Shown piece after piece: positions 19,489 to 32,223 of a stretch of DNA of 32,899 nucleotides. The number at the start of each line of letters is the position of its first letter. The stretch's first letter is position 1. The stretch lies in NCBI GenBank assembly GCA_015485375.1, contig WFTU01000370.1:1-32899 (forward strand). The letters are read 5' to 3'. The notes under the pieces were generated by a model. The model ran no database searches, was not told where the DNA came from, and worked only from the letters and a program-made list of their open reading frames with translations. This stretch comes from Paracoccaceae bacterium. GTDB taxonomy: Bacteria > Pseudomonadota > Alphaproteobacteria > Rhodobacterales > Rhodobacteraceae. The translations under genes and the position numbers were made by a program.

Positions 19489-20955
19489 ATGCCCCTTGTC
19501 GAAGACACCTTTTTCCTCGATCCGAACTTTCAGGGGTCGTTGCAAAGCCAGATCCAGCAGATCGTGGCCTCGGCCATTCTGGCGGGGCGGCTGAAGGCGG
19601 GGGAAAAGCTGCCCTCGTCACGCAAGCTGGCAAAGCATCTGGGGATTTCGCGGATTACGGTGACGCTGGCCTATAACGAGCTGGTGGCCGATGACTATAT
19701 CACGGCCGCCGACCGTTCCGGCTACTACGTTTCCGAGACGGCGCCGACGGTGCCTTTGCCGCCTGTGCGCGGCGAGATGGTGCGCGACAGTGTGGACTGG
19801 TCCAAAGCGGTGCAACGGGATTTTACCGGCGGCAAGCGGGTGGAGAAGAACTACGAATGGCGCAGTTATCCCTATCCGTTTGTCTATGGCCAGCCCGACC
19901 CGACGTTGTTCAATCAGGCGAGCTGGCGGCTGTGTGCCTTGCAGGCGCTGGGCAAGAAGGAATTCGACAGTCTGACCTCGGACTATGCCGAGCGGGACGA
20001 TCCGGAGCTGATCGATTTCATTGTGCGTCACAGCCTGCCGCGGCGCGGTATTCTGGCCAAGCCCGAGCAGGTTCTGGTGACGGTCGGCGCGCAGAATGCC
20101 CTGTGGATGGCGGCGCAGATCTTGCTGAACCGGGAGCGCACGGCGGTTTACGAGAACCCCGGCTATCACGGCCTGCGCGAGACTTTGCGCTATAGCGGCT
20201 GCAAGCGGGTTCCGGTGCAGATCGACGAACAGGGCCTGCCGCCGGAGGCGCTGCCGCAGGATTTCGACGTTCTGTTCACCACGCCAAGCCACCAGTGCCC
20301 GACCACGATCACCCTGCCGATGGAGCGGCGGCATGCCTTGTTGCGTATGGCGCGCGAGCGGGATTTCCTGATTGTCGAGGATGACTATGAATTCGAGATG
20401 AGTTTCCTCAAATCCCCGTCGCCGGCGCTCAAGTCGCTGGATAAGGAGGGGCGGGTGATCTACGTCGGCAGCTTTTCCAAATCGTTGTTTCCGGGGTTGC
20501 GGCTGGGCTATCTGGTCGGCTCGGAACCGTTTATCCGGCAGGCCCGCGCGCTGCGATCCGCCGTGCTGCGCCATCCGCCCGGACATGTGCAGCGGACCAC
20601 GGCCTATTTTCTGGGGCTCGGCCACTACGACGCGATGATCAAGCGGATGCGGAGCGTGTTTCACAAACGGCGCGAGGTCATGGATGCCGCACTTGCCGAG
20701 TGCGGGCTGAAAGTGGCAGGTAGCGCTTCGTTTGGCGGCTCCAGTTTCTGGGTCGAGGCACCGGAGCATATCGACACAGAAATTCTGGCGCGGGAGCTGG
20801 AAAAGAAAGGCGTGTTGATCGAGGCCGGCAGCCCGTTTTTCGAAGGGGTGGATTGCCCGCGAAACTATTTCCGGCTCGCCTATTCCTCGATAGATGAACG
20901 GAAAATCCCCAAGGGGGTGCGGCTGATCCGCGAAACGCTGGAGGAAATGGCATGA
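19489..20955 (+). CDS. tauR: MocR/PdxR-family (GntR-wHTH plus aminotransferase-like domain) regulator of taurine metabolism
   Basis: N-terminal wHTH GRLKAGEKLPSSRKLAKHLGISRITVTLAYNELVADDYI; PLP aminotransferase-like region with VIYVGSFSKSLFPGLRLGYLV; located between tpa and xsc. Confidence 0.87.
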   Translation: MPLVEDTFFLDPNFQGSLQSQIQQIVASAILAGRLKAGEKLPSSRKLAKHLGISRITVTLAYNELVADDYITAADRSGYYVSETAPTVPLPPVRGEMVRDSVDWSKAVQRDFTGGKRVEKNYEWRSYPYPFVYGQPDPTLFNQASWRLCALQALGKKEFDSLTSDYAERDDPELIDFIVRHSLPRRGILAKPEQVLVTVGAQNALWMAAQILLNRERTAVYENPGYHGLRETLRYSGCKRVPVQIDEQGLPPEALPQDFDVLFTTPSHQCPTTITLPMERRHALLRMARERDFLIVEDDYEFEMSFLKSPSPALKSLDKEGRVIYVGSFSKSLFPGLRLGYLVGSEPFIRQARALRSAVLRHPPGHVQRTTAYFLGLGHYDAMIKRMRSVFHKRREVMDAALAECGLKVAGSASFGGSSFWVEAPEHIDTEILARELEKKGVLIEAGSPFFEGVDCPRNYFRLAYSSIDERKIPKGVRLIRETLEEMA

Positions 20956-20988
20956 CTGGTCTTATTTTGATTCGCCAACTGGCCCTAT
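20956..20988 (+). promoter_or_regulatory. Direct-repeat operator (putative TauR site) upstream of xsc
   Basis: CTGGTCTTAT-N13-CTGGCCCTAT, same half-sites and 23 bp pitch as 19454..19486. Confidence 0.8.
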
Positions 20989-21053
20989 CGTGGTGTCGGG
21001 GGCTCTAGCATACAGGGGGCAACACTCTCTCCATTCAATCGAAGGATTCCGCC

Positions 21054-22832
21054 ATGAAAATGACCACTGAAGAGGCTTTTGTAAAAGTCCTGCAAATGCA
21101 CGGTATCGACAATGCGTTCGGCATTATCGGCTCGGCCTTCATGCCGATTTCCGACAAGTTTCCGCAGGCGGGGATCACATTCTGGGATTGCGCGCATGAA
21201 TATACCGCCGGCATGATGGCCGACGGTTTTGCGCGGGCTTCCGGCAAGATGTCGATGGCGATTGCCCAGAACGGCCCCGGCATTGCCAATCTGGTGACAC
21301 CGGTCAAAACCGCCTACTGGAACCACACGCCGATGCTGCTGGTGACGCCGCAGGCCGCCAACAAAACCATCGGGCAGGGCGGTTTTCAGGAAGTAGAGCA
21401 GATGCGGATGTTCTCGGACTGCGTGGCTTATCAGGAGGAGGTCCGCGACCCCTCGCGCATGGCCGAGGTGCTGAACCGCGTGATCATGAAGGCCAAGCGC
21501 CTGTCTGCGCCGGCGCAGATCAACATTCCGCGCGATATGTGGACGCAGGTGATCGACGTTGACCTGCCCGCGATCGTCGAATTCGAGCGTCCCGCCGGTG
21601 GTGCGCAGGCGATTGCCGAGGCGGCGGCGCTGTTGTCGAACGCCGAGTTCCCCGTGATCCTGAATGGCGCGGGCGTGGTGATCGGTGGCGCTATTGCGGC
21701 GTCGCAGGCGCTGGCCGAGCGGCTGGATGCGCCGGTGTGTTGTGGTTACCAGCACAATGATGCTTTCCCCGGCTCGCACCCGCTGTTTGCGGGGCCGCTG
21801 GGCTACAACGGCTCGCGGGCTGCGATGGAGCTGATCTCCAAGGCCGACGTGGTGCTGGCACTTGGCACCCGTCTCAACCCGTTCTCGACCTTGCCGGGCT
21901 ATGGCATCGACTATTGGCCGCAGGATGCGAGGGTCATTCAGGTAGACATCAACCCCGACCGGATCGGGCTGACCAAACCTGTCACGGTTGGCATTGCGGG
22001 GGATGCGAAACAGGTGGCCGAGTCCATTCTGGCACAGCTTTCCGGCACGGCAGGGGATGCGGGGCGTCAGGAACGTCGCGACCTGATTGCCACCACCAAA
22101 TCGGCCTGGGCGCAGGCGCTGACCTCGATGGATCACGAGGACGACGACGAAGGCACCGACTGGAACCGGCGCGCCCGCGCGGATCGCCCCGATGCGCTGT
22201 CGCCGCGTCAGGCATGGCGGGCGATTCAGGCGTCCTTGCCGAAGGAGGCGATCATTTCGTCGGACATCGGCAATGTCTGCGCCATCGGCAACGCCTATCC
22301 GACCTTCGAGGCGGGGCGCAAATACCTTGCACCCGGTCTGTTCGGGCCGTGCGGGTATAGCCTGCCTGCCATTCTCGGGGCCAAGATCGGGCAACCGGAA
22401 ACGCCGGTGGTCGGTTTTGCCGGTGACGGGGCTTTCGGGATTTCGATGAACGAGATGACCGCCTGCGGGCGTGACGACTGGCCGCCGATCACCATGGTGA
22501 TCTTCCGCAATTACCAGTGGGGCGCCGAGAAACGCAATACCACGCTCTGGTATCACGATAATTTCGTCGGGACGGAACTGGACTATAACGTCTCTTACGC
22601 AGGTATTGCCAAGGCTTGCGGCGTGAACGGGGTGGTTGCCACCACGATGGAAGGGCTGACCGAGGCGCTGGACACGGCCGTCAAGGCGCAGATGGAAAAG
22701 GGCGAGACGACCTTTATCGAGGTCATGCTCAATCAGGAAATGGGCGAGCCGTTCCGCCGCGACGCCATGACCACGCCGGTCGAGGTTGCAGGGATAGATC
22801 CCGCCGATATGCGCCCGCAGAAAGGCGCATAA
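21054..22832 (+). CDS. xsc: Sulfoacetaldehyde acetyltransferase
   Basis: 592 aa ThDP enzyme, MKMTTEEAFVKVLQMHGIDNAFGIIGSAFMPISDKFPQAGITFWDCAHE matches remembered Xsc N-termini; taurine gene context. Confidence 0.95.
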   Translation: MKMTTEEAFVKVLQMHGIDNAFGIIGSAFMPISDKFPQAGITFWDCAHEYTAGMMADGFARASGKMSMAIAQNGPGIANLVTPVKTAYWNHTPMLLVTPQAANKTIGQGGFQEVEQMRMFSDCVAYQEEVRDPSRMAEVLNRVIMKAKRLSAPAQINIPRDMWTQVIDVDLPAIVEFERPAGGAQAIAEAAALLSNAEFPVILNGAGVVIGGAIAASQALAERLDAPVCCGYQHNDAFPGSHPLFAGPLGYNGSRAAMELISKADVVLALGTRLNPFSTLPGYGIDYWPQDARVIQVDINPDRIGLTKPVTVGIAGDAKQVAESILAQLSGTAGDAGRQERRDLIATTKSAWAQALTSMDHEDDDEGTDWNRRARADRPDALSPRQAWRAIQASLPKEAIISSDIGNVCAIGNAYPTFEAGRKYLAPGLFGPCGYSLPAILGAKIGQPETPVVGFAGDGAFGISMNEMTACGRDDWPPITMVIFRNYQWGAEKRNTTLWYHDNFVGTELDYNVSYAGIAKACGVNGVVATTMEGLTEALDTAVKAQMEKGETTFIEVMLNQEMGEPFRRDAMTTPVEVAGIDPADMRPQKGA

Positions 22833-23936
22833 ATGGAGCGGCGCGACGATCCGTGGATTCTGGTGCTGAATGCCGGATCGTCGAGCCTGAAATTCGCCGC
22901 CTATCCGCTTGAGGGCGAGGGCGTTCTGGCATCGGGGCAGGTGGCTGCAATAGGTACCGATGCGGTTTTGCATTTCGGGGGTGCACGTCGGCCCGTATCG
23001 GCACCCGACCACGAAAGCGCAACCGGTATTGTGCTTGCGGCCTTGGAGGGCGCGGAATTCGGGGTGCCCGCCTCGGCAGGCCACCGCGTGGTTCATGGCG
23101 GTGCGCAGACTGATTCTGCTCTGATTACACCGTCCATCCGCCAGTTGATTTCCGAGGCTGCGACACTCGCGCCGCTGCACAATCCGCCCGCGCTTGCGGT
23201 GATTGACGCGCTTGCGGCGCGGTTTCCCACACTGGAGCAGGTGGCCTGCTTCGACACGGCTTTTCACACCGCGAATCCGCCTGAGGCCACGGTGATTCCG
23301 ATTCCGGCAGATCTGCGCGCCAAGGGGATCCGACGCTACGGGTTTCACGGCCTGAGCTATGCCTCTCTGGTGCGCCGGTTCTGCGCGGTGACCGGCGTTC
23401 CGCTGCCGCACCGGTTGTTGGCCTGTCACCTTGGCGCAGGGGCAAGCCTAGCGGGCGTGGTGGATGGGCAGGGCGTGGCGACCACGATGGGGTTCTCGCC
23501 CATGGACGGGCTGGTGATGGCCACGCGGGCGGGGGCGATGGATAGTGGTGTGCTGCTGCACTTGCTGAAAAACGAAGGGTTCGATCCTGACACGCTCGAC
23601 GCGATGCTCAATCGCGAGAGCGGGTTGAAGGCGCTGGGCGGCAGTGCGGATATGAAAACCCTGCTCGACTCACAAGCTCGCGAATCCGCCTTTGCTGTAA
23701 CACATTATTGTTACTGGGCGGCGCGCCATGCGGGTTCGATGATTGCGGCCATGGGGGGGATCGACGGAATCGTGTTTACCGGCGGAATCGGGGAAAATGC
23801 GCCCCGTATCCGCGAAGCCATTGTCGAACACCTGAAATGGTGCGGAATCACAGCGGAAAACACCTGGATTATTGCTTCGGACGAGGAGGGAGAGATCGCC
23901 CATTCCGTGCGCTGTCTGGCAACAAATACCGCCTGA
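22833..23936 (+). CDS. ackA: Acetate kinase
   Basis: VLNAGSSSLKFA, HRVVHGG, FDTAFH, RRYGFHGLSY, CHLGAGASLAGV, FSPMDGLVMATRAGAMDSGV and FTGGIGENAPRIRE motifs; start abuts the xsc stop. Confidence 0.95.
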   Translation: MERRDDPWILVLNAGSSSLKFAAYPLEGEGVLASGQVAAIGTDAVLHFGGARRPVSAPDHESATGIVLAALEGAEFGVPASAGHRVVHGGAQTDSALITPSIRQLISEAATLAPLHNPPALAVIDALAARFPTLEQVACFDTAFHTANPPEATVIPIPADLRAKGIRRYGFHGLSYASLVRRFCAVTGVPLPHRLLACHLGAGASLAGVVDGQGVATTMGFSPMDGLVMATRAGAMDSGVLLHLLKNEGFDPDTLDAMLNRESGLKALGGSADMKTLLDSQARESAFAVTHYCYWAARHAGSMIAAMGGIDGIVFTGGIGENAPRIREAIVEHLKWCGITAENTWIIASDEEGEIAHSVRCLATNTA

Positions 23937-24148: not shown

Positions 24149-25288
24149 ATGACTGAGACAAAAAATGGCGTAAACCGCCGTTCATTCCTGAAAACCGGGA
24201 CGACCGTTGGCGCCGCTGCGCTGGCAACCCCGGCACTCGTGTCGAAGGCGCTTGCGTCCTCGGGCGAGTTGACGCTGCTCGACTGGTCCGACTACTGGCC
24301 GGACGACCTGCTGGCAGGTTTCGAAGCCGAAACCGGTATCAAGGTCAACTATATCGGTGTCGGTTCGAACGAGGAAATCATCAACAAGATGAAAGCCTCC
24401 AACGGTTCGGGTGCCGATATCATCGGGCCGACCAATAACCGTAACCTGCAGTGGGGTCCGCTGGGCTTGCTGCAGCCGTGGGACATGAGCCGCGTGCCGA
24501 TTGATCGTGCAAACCCGGCTATGGCGAAAATCGGGCCGGACGGCTGGGATTTCGGTATGGGTTCCGAGTGGATCCCGCACATTTGGGGTACCGAGGGCAT
24601 GGCATGGCGCACGGATCTCTGGGCACCGGCGTCTGCTGACGGTGTTCCGTCCTATGGCGAGATCTGGGATGATGCCAATGCCGGCAAAACCATGATTCGC
24701 GCACACTCCGGTATGCTTTGTGCCGGTCTCTATATGGAGACCATCGGCGAGCTGGACGAAGGCGCTGTCTGGGCGGCCTACGAGTCGGAAGAGAATTTCC
24801 GCGCTACATGGTCAAAAATCACCGACTGGTGTATCGCCCGCAAAGGCAACCTGAAACTGATCTGGAACGATGCGGACAGCCAGAAAAACGGCCTGCTGAA
24901 TGGCGGCGTCGTGGTTGGCCAGACGTGGGACGGTCCGCCGCTCGCACTGAAAACCGCTGGCGAGCCGGTCACATACCAGGCACCGAAAGAGGGTGCGATG
25001 GCATGGGTAGACGGTCTGGCACTGCCCAAAGGCGCGGTCAACATCGACGAAGCCTATGCGCTGGTCGAATACGCCTACCGTCCGGAAGTTGCCGGCAAGG
25101 CGATCGACAAGCACGGTTACAACTCGCCGATCCTTGGCGCCGACAAGTTCGCAGGCGATGCCTACAAGAAGAACTTCGCCGAAGCCTATCCGGGTGACGC
25201 ACTGGCCAACCTTAACCCGTGGCCGGCCGAGCCGCCCTGGTATGCAGACGTGCGCACCGAATTTGTGAACAAATTCAAAAGCGCATAA
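24149..25288 (+). CDS. Extracellular solute-binding protein, PotD/PotF-like, with Tat-type signal
   Basis: MTETKNGVNRRSFLKTGTTVGAAALATPALVSKALA twin-arginine signal; mature LTLLDWSDYWPDDLLAGFEAETGIKVNYIGVGSNEEIINKMKA family pattern; AGGAGG before the ATG. Confidence 0.87.
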   Translation: MTETKNGVNRRSFLKTGTTVGAAALATPALVSKALASSGELTLLDWSDYWPDDLLAGFEAETGIKVNYIGVGSNEEIINKMKASNGSGADIIGPTNNRNLQWGPLGLLQPWDMSRVPIDRANPAMAKIGPDGWDFGMGSEWIPHIWGTEGMAWRTDLWAPASADGVPSYGEIWDDANAGKTMIRAHSGMLCAGLYMETIGELDEGAVWAAYESEENFRATWSKITDWCIARKGNLKLIWNDADSQKNGLLNGGVVVGQTWDGPPLALKTAGEPVTYQAPKEGAMAWVDGLALPKGAVNIDEAYALVEYAYRPEVAGKAIDKHGYNSPILGADKFAGDAYKKNFAEAYPGDALANLNPWPAEPPWYADVRTEFVNKFKSA

Positions 25289-25302
25289 GCAAGTCTGAAA
25301 TC

Positions 25303-25328
25303 TTCCGGTCGCCTTCTGGCGGCCGGAA
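25303..25328 (+). other. Intercistronic hairpin between binding protein and ATPase genes
   Basis: TTCCGGTCGCC-ttct-GGCGGCCGGAA: 11 bp stem with one G-U pair. Confidence 0.6.
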
Positions 25329-25402
25329 CCTAACCGGATATTACCGGTCGGGCGCCCGAGGGTCGTCCCGTTTTGATACCCCGAAATTGCGGAGGAAGTT
25401 CT

Positions 25403-26518
25403 ATGAGCGTTGGTGTTGGTGTGAATCTGGAAAATCTCTGGATACGGTTCGGAGATTTCGTGGCCGTTCAGAATGCCAATGTGAATATCAACGGCGGTGA
25501 CTTCTTTTCGTTCCTCGGCCCGTCTGGCTGCGGTAAAACCACGATATTGCGCGCCGTTTCCGGCTTCCTGGACCCCAGCGAGGGGCGGGTGCTGATTGGC
25601 GACAACGATATGGCGGGCATCGGTCCAAACAAGCGGCCGACTGCCCTGATTTTCCAGAACCTCGCGCTGTTTCCATTGATGAAAGTCTGGGAAAACATAA
25701 CCTTCTCGATGGAAGTTAAAGGGGCGAGCACGGCCGAGCGTCGCAAGCGCGCCGACGAGCTGCTCGATATGATTGCGCTCGACGGTCAGGGAGACAAGCT
25801 GCCTTCCGAACTGTCGGGTGGTCAAAAACAGCGCGTGGCGATTGCCCGTGCGCTTTGCGCCGAACCGGATGTGTTGCTGCTTGACGAGCCGCTCTCGGCG
25901 CTTGATTTGAAGCTGCGCCAGCATATGCGCACCGAGTTGCGCGAAATCCAGCAGCGGGTCGGTATTACCTTCATCTACATCACCCACGATCAGGGCGAGG
26001 CGTTGACCATGTCCGACAACGTGGCCGTGATGCGCGCCGGTATCATCGACCAGATCGGCACGGGGCACGAGGTTTATGACCGCCCTGCCACGCCCTTCGT
26101 TGCCTCTTTTGTTGGCGAAAACAATGTGTTCCGCGGGAAAATTCATGAAATCAACGGTACGCAGGCCCTGTTGCAGACCAATCGCACCGGCCTGCTGCGT
26201 GCGGAGATCACACCCGCCGCAGTCGGCAACCTGAAGGTCGGCGACGACGCGATGATGTTTGTGCGCCCCGAGGCGCTTGCCCCTGCAGGTGCGGCGCCAC
26301 CGGAAGATAAAACCATCATTTCGGCCACGGTCCTGAACGAGGAGTTCGAGGGCAATTCCTATAGCGTTTTCCTCGAAGGCGAGGGCGGCAAGGAAATCAA
26401 GATGTCGCTGCCGAACCTGGGGCAGGATCCCGAAGCCTCCAAAGGCTCGGAGCTTTCGCTTACCTATGATGCCAGCAACGCCGTGGTCATGCCCGCGGGC
26501 GAGCTGGCGTCGGAATAG
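25403..26518 (+). CDS. ABC transporter ATP-binding protein (PotA/PotG-like)
   Basis: GPSGCGKTT, LSGGQKQRVAIARALCAEPDVLLLDEPLSALD, ITHDQGEAL; TOBE-like C-terminus; start ATG 25403 after GGAGGA. Confidence 0.9.
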   Translation: MSVGVGVNLENLWIRFGDFVAVQNANVNINGGDFFSFLGPSGCGKTTILRAVSGFLDPSEGRVLIGDNDMAGIGPNKRPTALIFQNLALFPLMKVWENITFSMEVKGASTAERRKRADELLDMIALDGQGDKLPSELSGGQKQRVAIARALCAEPDVLLLDEPLSALDLKLRQHMRTELREIQQRVGITFIYITHDQGEALTMSDNVAVMRAGIIDQIGTGHEVYDRPATPFVASFVGENNVFRGKIHEINGTQALLQTNRTGLLRAEITPAAVGNLKVGDDAMMFVRPEALAPAGAAPPEDKTIISATVLNEEFEGNSYSVFLEGEGGKEIKMSLPNLGQDPEASKGSELSLTYDASNAVVMPAGELASE

Positions 26519-26526
26519 GGGGCAAT

Positions 26527-27456
26527 ATGAGCAAGCCCCGTCTGTTTTCGCAGTTCTTCCGCAACAACGGCAAGGTCATGGGCAGCATTCTGCTGTTTCT
26601 GGTGCTGTTCTGGATAGTCGTCCTTATCCTGTTGCCTCAGCTGTCGATGCTCGACTTTTCGTTCCGCTACAACCTGCCGCCGTCGGAGCTGGGCGGGCCG
26701 AAGGATGTATATACGCTCGACAACTATAAATTCCTGCTGTTCGGGGCCGAAGGCAGTGACGGCCGGTTTAACACGGTCGACCTTCAGGTCTTTGTGCGCA
26801 CGATTATCGCCGCGATTGCGGTTACCATCCTCGACCTGATCCTGTGCTATCCGCTTGCCTATTATCTTGGCCAGTCGAAGGGCAAGGGCATCACACGGCT
26901 GCTGGTCGTCATGCTGATTATTCCCTACTGGATCAACGAAATCCTGCGCGCCTTTGCGCTGCGCATCATTTTCGGGGATGCGGGGCTGATAAACGATGTG
27001 TTGCTGGTGCTGAACCTTATTCAGGAACCGATCGACTTCATCCGCGCCGATATCGCGCTCTATGCCGGCCTTGGCTATGCCTATATCCTGCTGATGCTGT
27101 TCCCGATGTACAACGTGATCGAGAGCCTCGATCGCAACCAGATCGAGGCGGCGCGCGATATGGGCGCCAGCTGGATCCGCATCCACCGCCGCATCGTCAT
27201 TCCGCACGCCAAACCGGGGATCGCCTCGGGTATGACCATGGTGTTCATGCTCTCGGCCGGAGCACTGGCGGCACCGCAAATTCTGGGCGGACCGAGCAGC
27301 CTGTGGTTTACGCAGCTGGTCTACCAGTGGTTCAATGACTCGCTGAACTGGCAGCAGGGCGCGGCCTACGCCATTGTTCTGCTGATCTCCTCGATCGTGA
27401 TCGTGCTGACGTTCATGAAAATCTTCAAGGTCAACATGGGGGATATCGGCAAATGA
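26527..27456 (+). CDS. ABC transporter permease (PotB/PotH-like)
   Basis: Multi-TM protein; permease loop ESLDRNQIEAARDMGASWIRIHRRIVIPHAKPGIASG. Confidence 0.88.
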   Translation: MSKPRLFSQFFRNNGKVMGSILLFLVLFWIVVLILLPQLSMLDFSFRYNLPPSELGGPKDVYTLDNYKFLLFGAEGSDGRFNTVDLQVFVRTIIAAIAVTILDLILCYPLAYYLGQSKGKGITRLLVVMLIIPYWINEILRAFALRIIFGDAGLINDVLLVLNLIQEPIDFIRADIALYAGLGYAYILLMLFPMYNVIESLDRNQIEAARDMGASWIRIHRRIVIPHAKPGIASGMTMVFMLSAGALAAPQILGGPSSLWFTQLVYQWFNDSLNWQQGAAYAIVLLISSIVIVLTFMKIFKVNMGDIGK

Positions 27457-28730
27457 AGTCGTCTTTCATCGGCCGCGTTGCGCTTGTCACCTATCTGGTG
27501 ATCTTCTTCGGTTATCTGCTCGGACCGCTGTTCGTGATGAGCATGACCGCCTTCAATTCCTCGGCCTTTCCGTCGATTTCACCCTGGGCATGCTACACTT
27601 ACGAATGGTTCGATGTTCTGTTCAAGGATGAGCGTATTCTTAACGGTATCAAGAACAGCGTCATCATCGGCATCGGCACGGTTATCCTGTCGGTATCCAT
27701 GGGACTAGCTGCGGCACTGGTTCTGACGCAGGTCTGGCCGAAGTTCCGCTCGACCTACTATACTATCGTCATTGCCCCGATCCTGATCCCCGGCGTGGTG
27801 CTCGGTATCTCGACACTGGTGTTCTGGGATCGCGTCAGTGTTTTCCTTGGTCCGTCGACCGAGGCCTTCCTGCATAACGGGATTTTCCTGACTGTGCTGG
27901 GCCAGTCGACCTTCATCGCCTCCTACGCCATGCTGGTGTTTGTGGCCCGTCTGCAGCGTTTCGACCCGGGACTGACCGAAGCAGCGCTTGATCTGGGCGC
28001 GACCCACACACAGGCTTTCCGCAAGATCCTGTTGCCGTTCATGCGTCCGGCCATTGCCTCGGCCGCCGTTCTGGCGTTTCTGGCATCTTTCGAGAACTAC
28101 AACACTACCACCTTTACCTTCGGCAACTATCCGACGCTGACGATCGAGTTGGCGCAGAAAGTGCGTTACGGTATCAACCCGTCGATTTCGGCACTGGCCT
28201 TTATCATCGTGACCCTGACAATTTTCGCGGCACTGGCCAACGAGGCCTATCGCCGGAACAAGCAGCGCAACGAGGATATCCGCCTGAAGGGGGCGCCGCG
28301 CAAATCCGGTGGCTTCCTGCCGCCGTTCCTGACCGGCAACCCCGCCGCCATCATTTTCGTGCTGCTGTCCTTTGTGGTGATCACCATGTTCTGGACCGCG
28401 CAGAGCTACGAGCCGGCCGAGTGCAAGGCGCGGGTTCTGGCCGAGAAACAGGCGCTGGCGGCCGAGCGGATCGAGGCCCTGCGCGAGCAGCGGTTCCAGC
28501 AGCGGCTGGAGGCGGCGCATTCCGGTGTCGATATCTTTGGCCGCTCGACGGTTGATCCGACCGTGACCGAGGCCCCCGAAGCCCCCGCATCCAACGGGGC
28601 ATTCGGAAGTGTCTTCGCGCCGACCAATCTCAACAACGCCGCTCCGGTTGAAGAGCCGGAAAGCAACTCCGGTGGCGCCTTTGGCGGTGTGTTTGCACCG
28701 ACCAACCTGCAGGGCACGGACGGCAACTGA
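27453..28730 (+). CDS. ABC transporter permease (PotC/PotI-like) with unusual C-terminal extension
   Basis: Permease loop LTEAALDLGATHTQAFRKILLPFMRPAIASAAV; after the core, a further hydrophobic segment and a long Ala/Glu/Arg then Pro/Gly/Asn-rich tail; ATGA overlap with the preceding gene. Confidence 0.88.
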   Translation: MKSSFIGRVALVTYLVIFFGYLLGPLFVMSMTAFNSSAFPSISPWACYTYEWFDVLFKDERILNGIKNSVIIGIGTVILSVSMGLAAALVLTQVWPKFRSTYYTIVIAPILIPGVVLGISTLVFWDRVSVFLGPSTEAFLHNGIFLTVLGQSTFIASYAMLVFVARLQRFDPGLTEAALDLGATHTQAFRKILLPFMRPAIASAAVLAFLASFENYNTTTFTFGNYPTLTIELAQKVRYGINPSISALAFIIVTLTIFAALANEAYRRNKQRNEDIRLKGAPRKSGGFLPPFLTGNPAAIIFVLLSFVVITMFWTAQSYEPAECKARVLAEKQALAAERIEALREQRFQQRLEAAHSGVDIFGRSTVDPTVTEAPEAPASNGAFGSVFAPTNLNNAAPVEEPESNSGGAFGGVFAPTNLQGTDGN

Positions 28731-28735
28731 CAAGG

Positions 28736-28757
28736 GGCCAGCCGCCACAGGCTGGCC
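28736..28757 (+). other. Intercistronic hairpin between permease and phosphodiesterase genes
   Basis: GGCCAGCC-gccaca-GGCTGGCC perfect 8 bp stem. Confidence 0.55.
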
Positions 28758-28779
28758 ATTCCGCGCAACAGGAAATCCG

Positions 28780-29586
28780 ATGCTTATCGCGCAAATCAGT
28801 GACACCCATATTGCGGAGGAGGGGCGCAAGACTTTCGGCATTGCTCCGATGGCGGAGAACCTTGCCGCTTGCGTTGCGCACATCAACGCGCAGCCGCTGC
28901 CTGTCGATGTGGTGCTGGTCAGCGGTGACATCACCAATGACGGAACCGAAGGGGAGGCCCGTCGGGCGGCCGGTATTCTGGCGGGGCTGGATTGCCCCTG
29001 TTATGTCATTCCCGGTAATCATGACGATAGAGGCGCACTCTGGTCGGTGTTCGGAGGCGGGGCCTGTCCGTCGCGCCAGGGGGACTTCCATTCGTTTAGT
29101 GTTGCGGATTTCCCTGTTCACCTCCTGTTTGTGGACAGCACGCGCGTTGGCGCGGCTGGCGGGGAGATCTGCGAGGCTCGGGCGGCTTGGCTGGAACGGG
29201 CTCTGGCGGAAAGTGGGGACAAACCTGTCGTGATCGTCCTGCACCATCCGCCATTGAAATGCGGCGTGCCGGAGAGCGATCAGGACGGGTTCCTCGGTGC
29301 GGAGCGTTTCGGAGAGATTGTTGCGCGGCACGCCAATATCGAGCGGGTGCTTTGCGGGCATATCCATTTGCATACCCATTCCCGTTGGGCCGGAACGACG
29401 GTGACCACCGCACCGAGCACCGGTATGCCGCTGGCGCTGGATCTGACACAATCGCATCCGTCGGAGTTTCTGCTGGATGCGCCTTCCTACCTGCTGCATC
29501 ACTGGACACCGGACGGGGATCTGGTTACCCATCCGGTGCGCGTGGCGTCGCTTGATGGTCCATTCCCCTTTGTGGAGCGTCGTTGA
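28780..29586 (+). CDS. Class III cyclic-nucleotide/glycerophosphodiester phosphodiesterase, GpdQ/CpdA-like metallophosphoesterase
   Basis: Dinuclear metal motifs ISDTHI, VSGDITNDG, PGNHDDRG, HHPPL, CGHIHLHT; overall layout resembles GpdQ from memory. Preferred start ATG 28780. Confidence 0.85.
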   Translation: MLIAQISDTHIAEEGRKTFGIAPMAENLAACVAHINAQPLPVDVVLVSGDITNDGTEGEARRAAGILAGLDCPCYVIPGNHDDRGALWSVFGGGACPSRQGDFHSFSVADFPVHLLFVDSTRVGAAGGEICEARAAWLERALAESGDKPVVIVLHHPPLKCGVPESDQDGFLGAERFGEIVARHANIERVLCGHIHLHTHSRWAGTTVTTAPSTGMPLALDLTQSHPSEFLLDAPSYLLHHWTPDGDLVTHPVRVASLDGPFPFVERR

Positions 29587-30992
29587 TCATGCGCGAGCCA
29601 CTTCCGGACGAAACCTTTGACGTCGCCATTGTCGGCGGGGGCGTCGTTGGTTGCGCCATGGCCCGGCGTTTTACGCTGGAAGGCGCGCGGGTTGTGTTGC
29701 TGGAGAAGGCGAGCGATATTCTTGACGGAGCCAGCAAGGCCAATAGTGCCATCCTGCACACGGGGTTCGACGCGCCGCCCGGATCGCTGGAACTGGCCTG
29801 TATTCAGGCGGGGTATCGCGAGTATCTGGACATTCACGAGACCATGGGCCTGCCGCTGGAGCGGACGGGGGCCTATGTTGTGGCATGGACCGAGGAGCAG
29901 GAAGCGGCGCTGCCGGATATCCTGCAAAAGGCGCACGATAACGGTGTGGCTGACTCGGTTCTGGTTGATGCTGCAACGCTGCGCGCTGCCGAGCCACAGC
30001 TTTCATCACAGGCCCGCGCGGCGATCCATATTCCCGGCGAAAGCCTGATTGACCCGTGGTCCGCGCCATACGCCTATCTGCAGCAGGCGCTGGACAACGG
30101 CGCGCAGGTGTTTGTCGATTGCGAGGTGACAGGCGGGGTGTTCGCCGACGGGGAGTGGACGCTTGAAACCTCGCGCGGCGAGATCAAAACCCGTTCGGTT
30201 GTGAATTGCGCCGGGCTGTACGGCGATCTGCTCGACCGGAAGCTGCTGGGTGATGCCGGTTTCACCATCGCCCCGCGCAAGGGGCAGTTTGTTGTGTTTG
30301 ACAAGGCGGCCTCGACGCTGGCCGATGCGATTATTCTACCGGTGCCGAGCGCGCGCACCAAGGGGATTGTGCTGTTCCGGACAGTGTTCGGCAACCTTGC
30401 GGTCGGACCAACGGCCGAGGACCAGCAAAGCCGCACGGATGCCTCGACCGACCGTGAAATGCTGCAGTCGTTGATCGACGCGGGTATCGAAATGATTCCA
30501 GCGCTGGCCGACATGCCGGTCACGGCCACATATGCAGGGCTGCGACCGGCGTGTGAATTCAAGGAATACCGGATCAGCGAAACGCCCGATCGCAACTGGA
30601 TCACCGTTGGTGCTATCCGCTCCACCGGTCTGAGTGCGGCGCTGGGGGTCGCGCAGCATGTGTTCGGCCTCTACAATCGCGTGGACATGGGGCATCAGCC
30701 GATCGAGAACCCGTCCATTCCGCAGGCAAGTCGTCTGGCCGAGCGGTTCCCGCGTGACTGGCAGGAACCGGTTCATGGAGAAATCATTTGCCATTGCGAA
30801 CTGGTGACGCGGCGCGAGATCGAGGCGGCGCTGCAAGGGCCACTTGCCGCGCGCTCGCTGGCGGGGCTGAAACGGCGGACACGGGCCACGATGGGGCGGT
30901 GTCAGGGGTTCTATTGCTCGGCCAGACTGGCGGAAATCACGGATGGGCATTTCGAAATCCCGTTGGCACCGGAGGTCAAGGATGGGACATGA
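29583..30992 (+). CDS. FAD-dependent oxidoreductase with BFD-like [2Fe-2S] domain (GlpA-like glycerol-3-phosphate dehydrogenase family)
   Basis: FDVAIVGGGVVGCAMARRFTLEGARVVLLEKASDILDGASKANSAILHTGFDAPPGSLE; C-terminal IICHCELVTRREIEAAL..RATMGRCQGFYCSARL cysteine pattern. Confidence 0.85.
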   Translation: MIMREPLPDETFDVAIVGGGVVGCAMARRFTLEGARVVLLEKASDILDGASKANSAILHTGFDAPPGSLELACIQAGYREYLDIHETMGLPLERTGAYVVAWTEEQEAALPDILQKAHDNGVADSVLVDAATLRAAEPQLSSQARAAIHIPGESLIDPWSAPYAYLQQALDNGAQVFVDCEVTGGVFADGEWTLETSRGEIKTRSVVNCAGLYGDLLDRKLLGDAGFTIAPRKGQFVVFDKAASTLADAIILPVPSARTKGIVLFRTVFGNLAVGPTAEDQQSRTDASTDREMLQSLIDAGIEMIPALADMPVTATYAGLRPACEFKEYRISETPDRNWITVGAIRSTGLSAALGVAQHVFGLYNRVDMGHQPIENPSIPQASRLAERFPRDWQEPVHGEIICHCELVTRREIEAALQGPLAARSLAGLKRRTRATMGRCQGFYCSARLAEITDGHFEIPLAPEVKDGT

Positions 30993-32223
30993 ATTGACCC
31001 TGGGGCCGGATATCGATGTTGCCATCATCGGGGGAGGACCGTCGGGTCTCGCCGCCGCGACCGAATTGAAACGTCGGGGAGTCGCCCGCGTGGTGGTGCT
31101 GGAGCGCGAGCCGGTGGCGGGCGGGATCCCGCGCCATTGCGGCCATCCGCCGTTCGGCTGGCGTGAATTCCGCCGTATCCTCACCGGTCCGCAATATGCG
31201 CGAAAACTGGTTTCGGTGGCAGAGAAAGCCGGTGTGGAAATCCACACGAATACAAGCGTTGCGACAATCAAGCCGGGGCCGGGGCTGACACTCGCGACGC
31301 CCGAAGGTGTTCTGGATATTTCCGCCAGTCGCGTAATATACGCCACCGGTGTTCGCGAAACCCCGCGCGCCGCGCGCCTGATATCCGGTGTGCGGGCCAA
31401 GGGTATTCTCAACACCGGTGCGCTGCAGACCATGGTCTATCTGGAGGGGCGGAGTCCGTTCTTGCGGCCGCTGATTGTCGGCACCGAACTTGTCTCGTTC
31501 TCGGCCATCCAGACCTGTCGCCATGCCGGTATCAAACCGGTAGCGATGATCGGGGAGGGGGCCACGACCGTTGCCCGCTGGCCCACAGGTCTGTTCCCGA
31601 AACTGGCCGGCATCCCGCTCCACCTTCGAACCCGCCTTGAACGGATCAACGGGGAGGCGGTGGTCACATCCGCCACTGTAGACGGGCCGGATGGCGTGCG
31701 TGACATTCCCTGTGACGGGGTTCTGCTGACCGGAGAGTTTACGCCGGAGTCCAGCCTCGGGCGTCTGGGGCACTTGCAGATTGATCGCGGGACAGGCGGA
31801 CCTGCGGTTGACCAGTTCGGCCGATGCTCGGACCCGCGATTTTATGCCACCGGCAACCTGTTGCGTCCGGTCGAAACCGCAGGATGGAGCTGGCAGGAAG
31901 GGTGCGAGACCGGATTGCGGGTTGCCCGCGATCTGGTCGGAAGCCAGCCGCCCGCGCAACGCCAGATTCATGTTGTGACGCAAGAACCGCTGATCAAGCT
32001 GGTGATGCCGCAACGTGTCAGCCTGCCGCTGTCGGTGCGCGGGATGGAGGCGCTGCAGGTTCGGTTCACCGCACCGGCCCGCGGGTTTATCGAGGTTTAC
32101 GCAGACGGGGCGCTGGCGTGGAGCAAGCCGGTCGATGTGCGGCCCGAGCGCCGTTTCCTGATCCCGCTTGCCGGACTGGCGGAACAGCACACCAACGTGC
32201 TGGAACTGCGCTTTACCAAATAA
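30982..32223 (+). CDS. NAD(P)/FAD-dependent oxidoreductase (HcnB/opine-oxidase-A/GlpA-partner-like)
   Basis: VAIIGGGPSGLAAATELKRRGVARVVVLEREPVAGGIPRHCGHPPFG; VIYATGVRETPR; PRFYATGNLLRPVETAGWSWQEG. Preferred start ATG 30982 after GGAGG. Confidence 0.83.
   Translation: MGHELTLGPDIDVAIIGGGPSGLAAATELKRRGVARVVVLEREPVAGGIPRHCGHPPFGWREFRRILTGPQYARKLVSVAEKAGVEIHTNTSVATIKPGPGLTLATPEGVLDISASRVIYATGVRETPRAARLISGVRAKGILNTGALQTMVYLEGRSPFLRPLIVGTELVSFSAIQTCRHAGIKPVAMIGEGATTVARWPTGLFPKLAGIPLHLRTRLERINGEAVVTSATVDGPDGVRDIPCDGVLLTGEFTPESSLGRLGHLQIDRGTGGPAVDQFGRCSDPRFYATGNLLRPVETAGWSWQEGCETGLRVARDLVGSQPPAQRQIHVVTQEPLIKLVMPQRVSLPLSVRGMEALQVRFTAPARGFIEVYADGALAWSKPVDVRPERRFLIPLAGLAEQHTNVLELRFTK

Follow-up and report, generated by a model that had tools for sequence, protein, structure and literature searches.

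In the OpuA and GlnPQ importers the binding domains are fused to the permease, and in the maltose importer an extra periplasmic element of the permease, MalF P2, touches the binding protein. E. coli PotC, in turn, is a permease of 264 aa with six transmembrane segments (TMs) and a periplasmic loop P1 (PMC11414716). Here, we describe a PotC-like permease that continues through a seventh TM into a tail with a repeated short motif, encoded in the window (i.e., the whole stretch of 32,899 nucleotides that was analysed), together with 71 homologues, 40 of them tailed and 31 tailless.

The importer operon and its neighbourhood

The permease gene belongs to a set of four importer genes:

24149..25288, + strand: PotD/PotF-like substrate-binding protein, soluble, TAT-exported, 379 aa from MTETK
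25373..26518, + strand: PotA-like ATP-binding subunit (Pfam ABC_tran and TOBE_2; nearest NCBIfam model PhnT2/PotA, under its cut-off)
26527..27456, + strand: PotB-like permease subunit (Pfam BPD_transp_1; NCBIfam PotB at 147 bits, under the equivalog cut-off)
27453..28730, + strand: PotC-like permease with a seventh TM and a tail, 425 aa (Pfam, NCBIfam, AlphaFold core compared with E. coli PotC)

By domain, fold and operon, the product of 27453..28730 is a type I ABC importer permease of the PotC subfamily. Its residues 83-263 match BPD_transp_1 (PF00528) at 49.7 bits against a cut-off of 26.4, E. coli PotC is its closest solved relative by sequence (E = 3.4e-25), and Foldseek returned E. coli PotC (8y5f_C, E = 6.7e-8) as the best match to its AlphaFold core. 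A binding protein, an ATPase and a PotB partner accompany the gene, the start of which overlaps the end of the PotB-like gene by 4 bases; the binding protein carries Pfam SBP_bac_8 and a TAT signal and matches PotD/PotF in phmmer. Where a PotC protein typically stops in the cytoplasm past TM6, a feature that is not strictly defining for the subfamily, the window permease goes on into TM7 and a tail of ~107 residues. Scores against the NCBIfam equivalogs fall below the cut-offs both for PotC (115.5 bits, cut-off 326) and for PotD (97.4 bits, cut-off 582). Among the acidic polyamine-binding residues of PotD, the alignment shows D257 kept as D288 and D168 and E171 changed to H186 and M189 in the window binding protein. 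We therefore rejected an identity as a spermidine transporter, on the NCBIfam cut-offs and because D168 and E171 are not kept.

Several further observations concern the substrate. The binding protein (24149-25288) keeps the PotD aromatics (W46, Y49, W260, W286) along with D288 and carries R-x-H-S in place of the acidic D168/E171 of PotD; from the sequence, an amine with an anionic group is a conceivable ligand. Within 24149-32223, the importer genes lead into a GpdQ/CpdA-like metallophosphoesterase, accompanied by a type 2 glycerol-3-phosphate-oxidase-like FAD enzyme and a second FAD/NAD oxidoreductase. Neighbours of this kind were seen at three tailed orthologues (L013, L018, L019), and the phosphoesterase alone at two others (L017, L063). 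These phosphoesterase and FAD-enzyme neighbours, occurring also beside some tailed orthologues, suggest a glycerophosphodiester-type substrate in the window subclade. Directly upstream of the importer (19489-23936) lie a MocR-type regulator, a sulfoacetaldehyde acetyltransferase gene (xsc) and an acetate-kinase-family gene, an arrangement resembling sulfonate degradation clusters. Locus L074 (genome G243) likewise has xsc near its tailed importer, and many tailed loci have a MocR-like gene nearby.

Anatomy, distribution and conservation of the tail

The features of the tail, and of the loop residue predicted to pair with it, are as follows:

27591..27593, + strand: codon of C47 (SPWAC, periplasmic loop 1), predicted to form a disulfide with C324
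28344..28406, + strand: TM7, about residues 298-318 (AlphaFold helix 297-318; mean hydropathy 2.3 over 40 orthologues)
28413..28520, + strand: charged helix, residues 321-356 (AlphaFold; block pLDDT 69-83, last ~6 residues 62)
28422..28424, + strand: codon of C324, 6 residues past TM7, predicted partner of C47
28521..28595, + strand: linker, disordered and fast-drifting (pLDDT <50 at residues 358-385; alignment)
28596..28631, + strand: putative docking motif copy 1, GAFGSVFAPTNL
28674..28709, + strand: putative docking motif copy 2, GAFGGVFAPTNL

The initial annotation of this DNA had noted a further hydrophobic segment, a charged stretch and two near-identical 12-mers past the PotC-like core. 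All three are present in the ORF 27453-28730, and the coordinates given for the 12-mers are exact to the base; the hydrophobic segment spans residues 298-318 (28344-28406), and the start noted for it, 28380, lies within it. Past the charged helix, the AlphaFold monomer is mostly disordered by prediction, with the motif segments at low confidence and not confidently placed.

As had been anticipated, PotC proteins normally stop soon past TM6, E. coli PotC at 264 aa and 30 of the 31 tailless relatives at 264-320 aa (the remaining one, L007, at 323 aa). The tail, present on 40 permeases and not on the 31 relatives ending after TM6, is an added module, in agreement with the earlier reading. Tailed permeases occur in several alphaproteobacterial families; of 397 genomes sampled from the family, about 15 have one, as do further relatives. 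Plasmids of Ruegeria, Leisingera, Aliiroseovarius and Paroceanicella also encode them, under no other label than 'ABC transporter permease' in those annotated plasmid records that were checked. One genome (G379) carries two of them on different contigs (L033 on C11, L043 on C27), each of 425 aa, with equal match scores and the same cysteine positions. With the tree built from the core only, a single branch of the best tree separates the 40 tailed rows from the others, and 78% of bootstrap trees show this split, so that a single origin of the tail is likely, with low support at the fork of the tailed group (74/18) and weak deep support.

No clear match to the tail was found outside Alphaproteobacteria in a 299-genome phylum sample, where a lone match (E = 4e-4, with an internal stop) was taken as spurious, and a search against phages returned nothing. 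The database search of the tail alone that had been proposed gave nothing significant, whether with the tail profile against PDB sequences or with tail sequences against Pfam. We found no described equivalent of the tailed permease in Pfam, the PDB or the literature searched.

GAFGSVFAPTNL and GAFGGVFAPTNL share 11/12 residues and differ in 10/12 codons, nine silently and one (AGT/GGT) giving S -> G. An 11/12 internal repeat appeared in 0/3000 shuffles of the tail residues, and a further 1000 shuffles stayed at or below 7/12. Between the window and a 95%-identical orthologue, the two motifs differ by 9 synonymous codon changes and 1 non-synonymous change, compared with 4 and 5, respectively, in the 14-codon linker between them. 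The suggestion that the motifs are selected at protein level is thereby borne out, by the nine silent differences between the copies as well as by the comparison with the orthologue. Absence or randomness of the tail in orthologues, which had been named as grounds for dismissing it, was looked for and not found: the tail is kept, and while linkers drift among tails, F-G-x-V-F-x-P-x-N-L (consensus F-G-[GNS]-V-F-[ADSN]-P-x-[NT]-L) recurs in 2-3 copies in 33/40. Counted by a strict rule over the 40 proteins, there are two copies in 28, three in five, one in one and none in six; F and P are present in 72/72 strict copies and L in 71/72, and the six proteins without a strict copy include the variants FGGAFGG..L, FGDIFGDPDLF and FGDVF. 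Two canonical copies are not strictly required, given the members with one or degenerate copies (L016, L037, L159, L146, L148, L149, L152). In the close orthologue L016 (6336-7508), the tail stops early with a single degenerate motif, GAFGDVFKDLEQGD, and the cysteine pair is retained; judged by its sequence, this is a natural partial tail loss.

Identity between motif copies is 80% within a protein versus 55% between proteins, which suggests a common partner or homogenisation. The tail profile matched no other protein in the window genome, and a DNA-pattern search for the motif in 26 tailed genomes gave no convincing match in other proteins. Its off-tail matches comprised one recurrent membrane protein, which we take to be NqrB, and scattered singles; the recurrent FGNVFAP, near the hydrophobic C-terminal end of that protein, was treated as chance. 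As far as sequences go, the tail is conserved, the cysteine pair is kept, and the motifs are under selection and recur, and the putative docking role first proposed for the tail is in keeping with a short motif repeated along a disordered segment.

Topology and the cysteine pair

The initial annotation had left open whether the tail is periplasmic or cytoplasmic; the evidence favours the periplasm and includes a cysteine pair that had been missed. All tailed permeases (40/40) have a Cys at C47, in periplasmic loop 1, and another at C324, just past TM7, and none of the tailless relatives (0/31) has a Cys at the C47 position, where Gly is most common and Ala, Ser, Thr and others make up the rest, an association that counts as essentially one evolutionary event. 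C47 and C324 are the sole cysteines of the window protein, as are their equivalents in several other tailed proteins, and C324 is the only invariant column among 24 diverse tails with a mean column identity of 26%. Given six TMs and a periplasmic P1 in E. coli PotC, a seventh TM would exit to the periplasm. Net charge, averaged over the 40 proteins, is +3.9 in the TM6-TM7 linker and -0.6 in the 15 residues past TM7. Taking together the cysteine pair, the charge pattern and what is known of PotC topology, we infer strongly that the tail is on the periplasmic side, a placement that is very probably correct as a matter of judgement rather than calculation. It is also likely, again as judged and not calculated, that C47 and C324 form the predicted disulfide, which would staple the tail to loop 1.

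Possible roles of the tail and comparison with known systems

Neighbour-gene clustering and synteny showed that only the four ABC genes are common to tailed loci, with no recurrent extra periplasmic gene beside them. The binding protein is the sole separate soluble periplasmic product of this conserved locus and is therefore favoured as the local docking candidate. Our judgement, which is not a calculation, is that the cognate soluble substrate-binding protein has about an even chance of being the target of the tail.

The best explanation of the whole, for which we see the odds as balanced, would be a stapled periplasmic arm with hooks for the binding protein. The seventh TM would take the C-terminus out of the cytoplasm, and C324, just outside the membrane, would form a disulfide with C47 of loop 1, fastening the arm at its base to the transporter. 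The charged helix of ~36 residues would raise a disordered leash bearing F-G-x-V-F-x-P-x-N-L twice, or three times in some relatives. Each copy might be a short peptide hook whose likeliest target is the importer's own soluble substrate-binding protein, which the arm would keep by the mouth of the permease at an increased local concentration. We hold docking to the binding protein with moderate confidence; that short linear motifs, repeated along an intrinsically disordered arm with a disulfide staple, let a permease catch its free binding protein is a more tentative proposition, which we would not yet back over its denial. A partial Mantel test of the whole distal tail against the binding protein gave r = 0.27 (p = 0.01), a covariation that was lost with motif-only distances and outliers removed and hence discarded. 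We likewise set aside the 39 binding-protein positions conserved only in tailed systems as docking evidence, because several lie in the PotD ligand pocket or permease interface and are inseparable from substrate specificity.

A 36-residue helix followed by ~70 disordered residues could cross much of the periplasm, and the tail is constant while neighbour genes differ between loci, which would also suit a tail that anchors or positions the importer on another periplasmic structure or protein (e.g., peptidoglycan, an outer membrane protein or another complex). However, if the motif were a general anchor, other inner-membrane proteins should carry it as well; none did in the window genome and none convincingly in the 26 tailed genomes, and Pfam shows no known anchoring domain, making this reading unlikely. 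The divergence of TM7 and the helix tracks that of PotB when controlled for the other subunits (partial Mantel r = 0.35, p = 0.0005), as might be expected of a self-docking regulator whose motifs bind loops of the two permeases on the periplasmic side, gating or stabilising the importer in competition with the binding protein. The disulfide base would lie near the periplasmic mouth, and the permease subunits are always there. Yet the PotB signal belongs to the helix and is not robust for the motifs (p = 0.02-0.13), the monomer model leaves the motif segments mostly disordered, at low confidence, and 2-3 copies on long variable linkers would be better suited to holding a mobile partner by avidity than to forming one gate; we thus consider self-docking improbable. 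The aromatic/Gly motifs between S/N/E/P-rich linkers resemble sticker-spacer sequences, with copies alike within a protein (0.80 vs 0.55), and FG-type motifs might be weak stickers through which several importers gather in the membrane, but this is very doubtful given that the P..NL end is conserved equally with the FG part, suggesting a defined binding pocket, and that copy number is steady at 2-3 with fairly regular spacing. Least probable is a cytoplasmic tail that docks a cytosolic partner, with TM7 re-entrant or peripheral and the cysteines unrelated: the helix is Glu/Arg-rich and we know of no experimental topology for the tailed family, but TM7 is strongly hydrophobic in 40 orthologues, the charge bias agrees with an outside location, and the tail cysteine is always paired with the periplasmic-loop cysteine.

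How a soluble binding protein reaches its importer and remains there is a question of uptake kinetics, above all for trace-nutrient marine bacteria. If the stapled arm does hold the binding protein, it would tether the receptor by a means other than lipid anchors or domain fusion, with a valency set by the number of motifs, and such a dedicated, removable peptide leash would make the question open to tail and motif deletions. The cysteine pair offers a handle for topology and for crosslinking the arm.

Compared with E. coli PotC (PotABCD, PDB 8y5f), the window permease shares the six-TM core, the predicted fold and the same four kinds of subunit in the operon, whereas PotC is without TM7 and tail and has Gly at the C47 position; D108 of PotC is replaced by G114, in addition to the replacement of PotD D168/E171 by H186/M189 in the binding protein. 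MalF P2 is likewise an extra periplasmic element on a permease, with a contact to the binding protein that is only proposed for the window importer, but it is a folded loop domain between TMs as opposed to a C-terminal disordered tail with repeated motifs. In OpuA and GlnPQ, the receptor domain itself is fused to the permease (PMC11065425, PMC8025302). The likeness to these importers is the functional idea of a receptor kept near the translocator, a proposal in the case of the window importer, where the link would be a disordered tail with short motifs and the receptor is separate and soluble.
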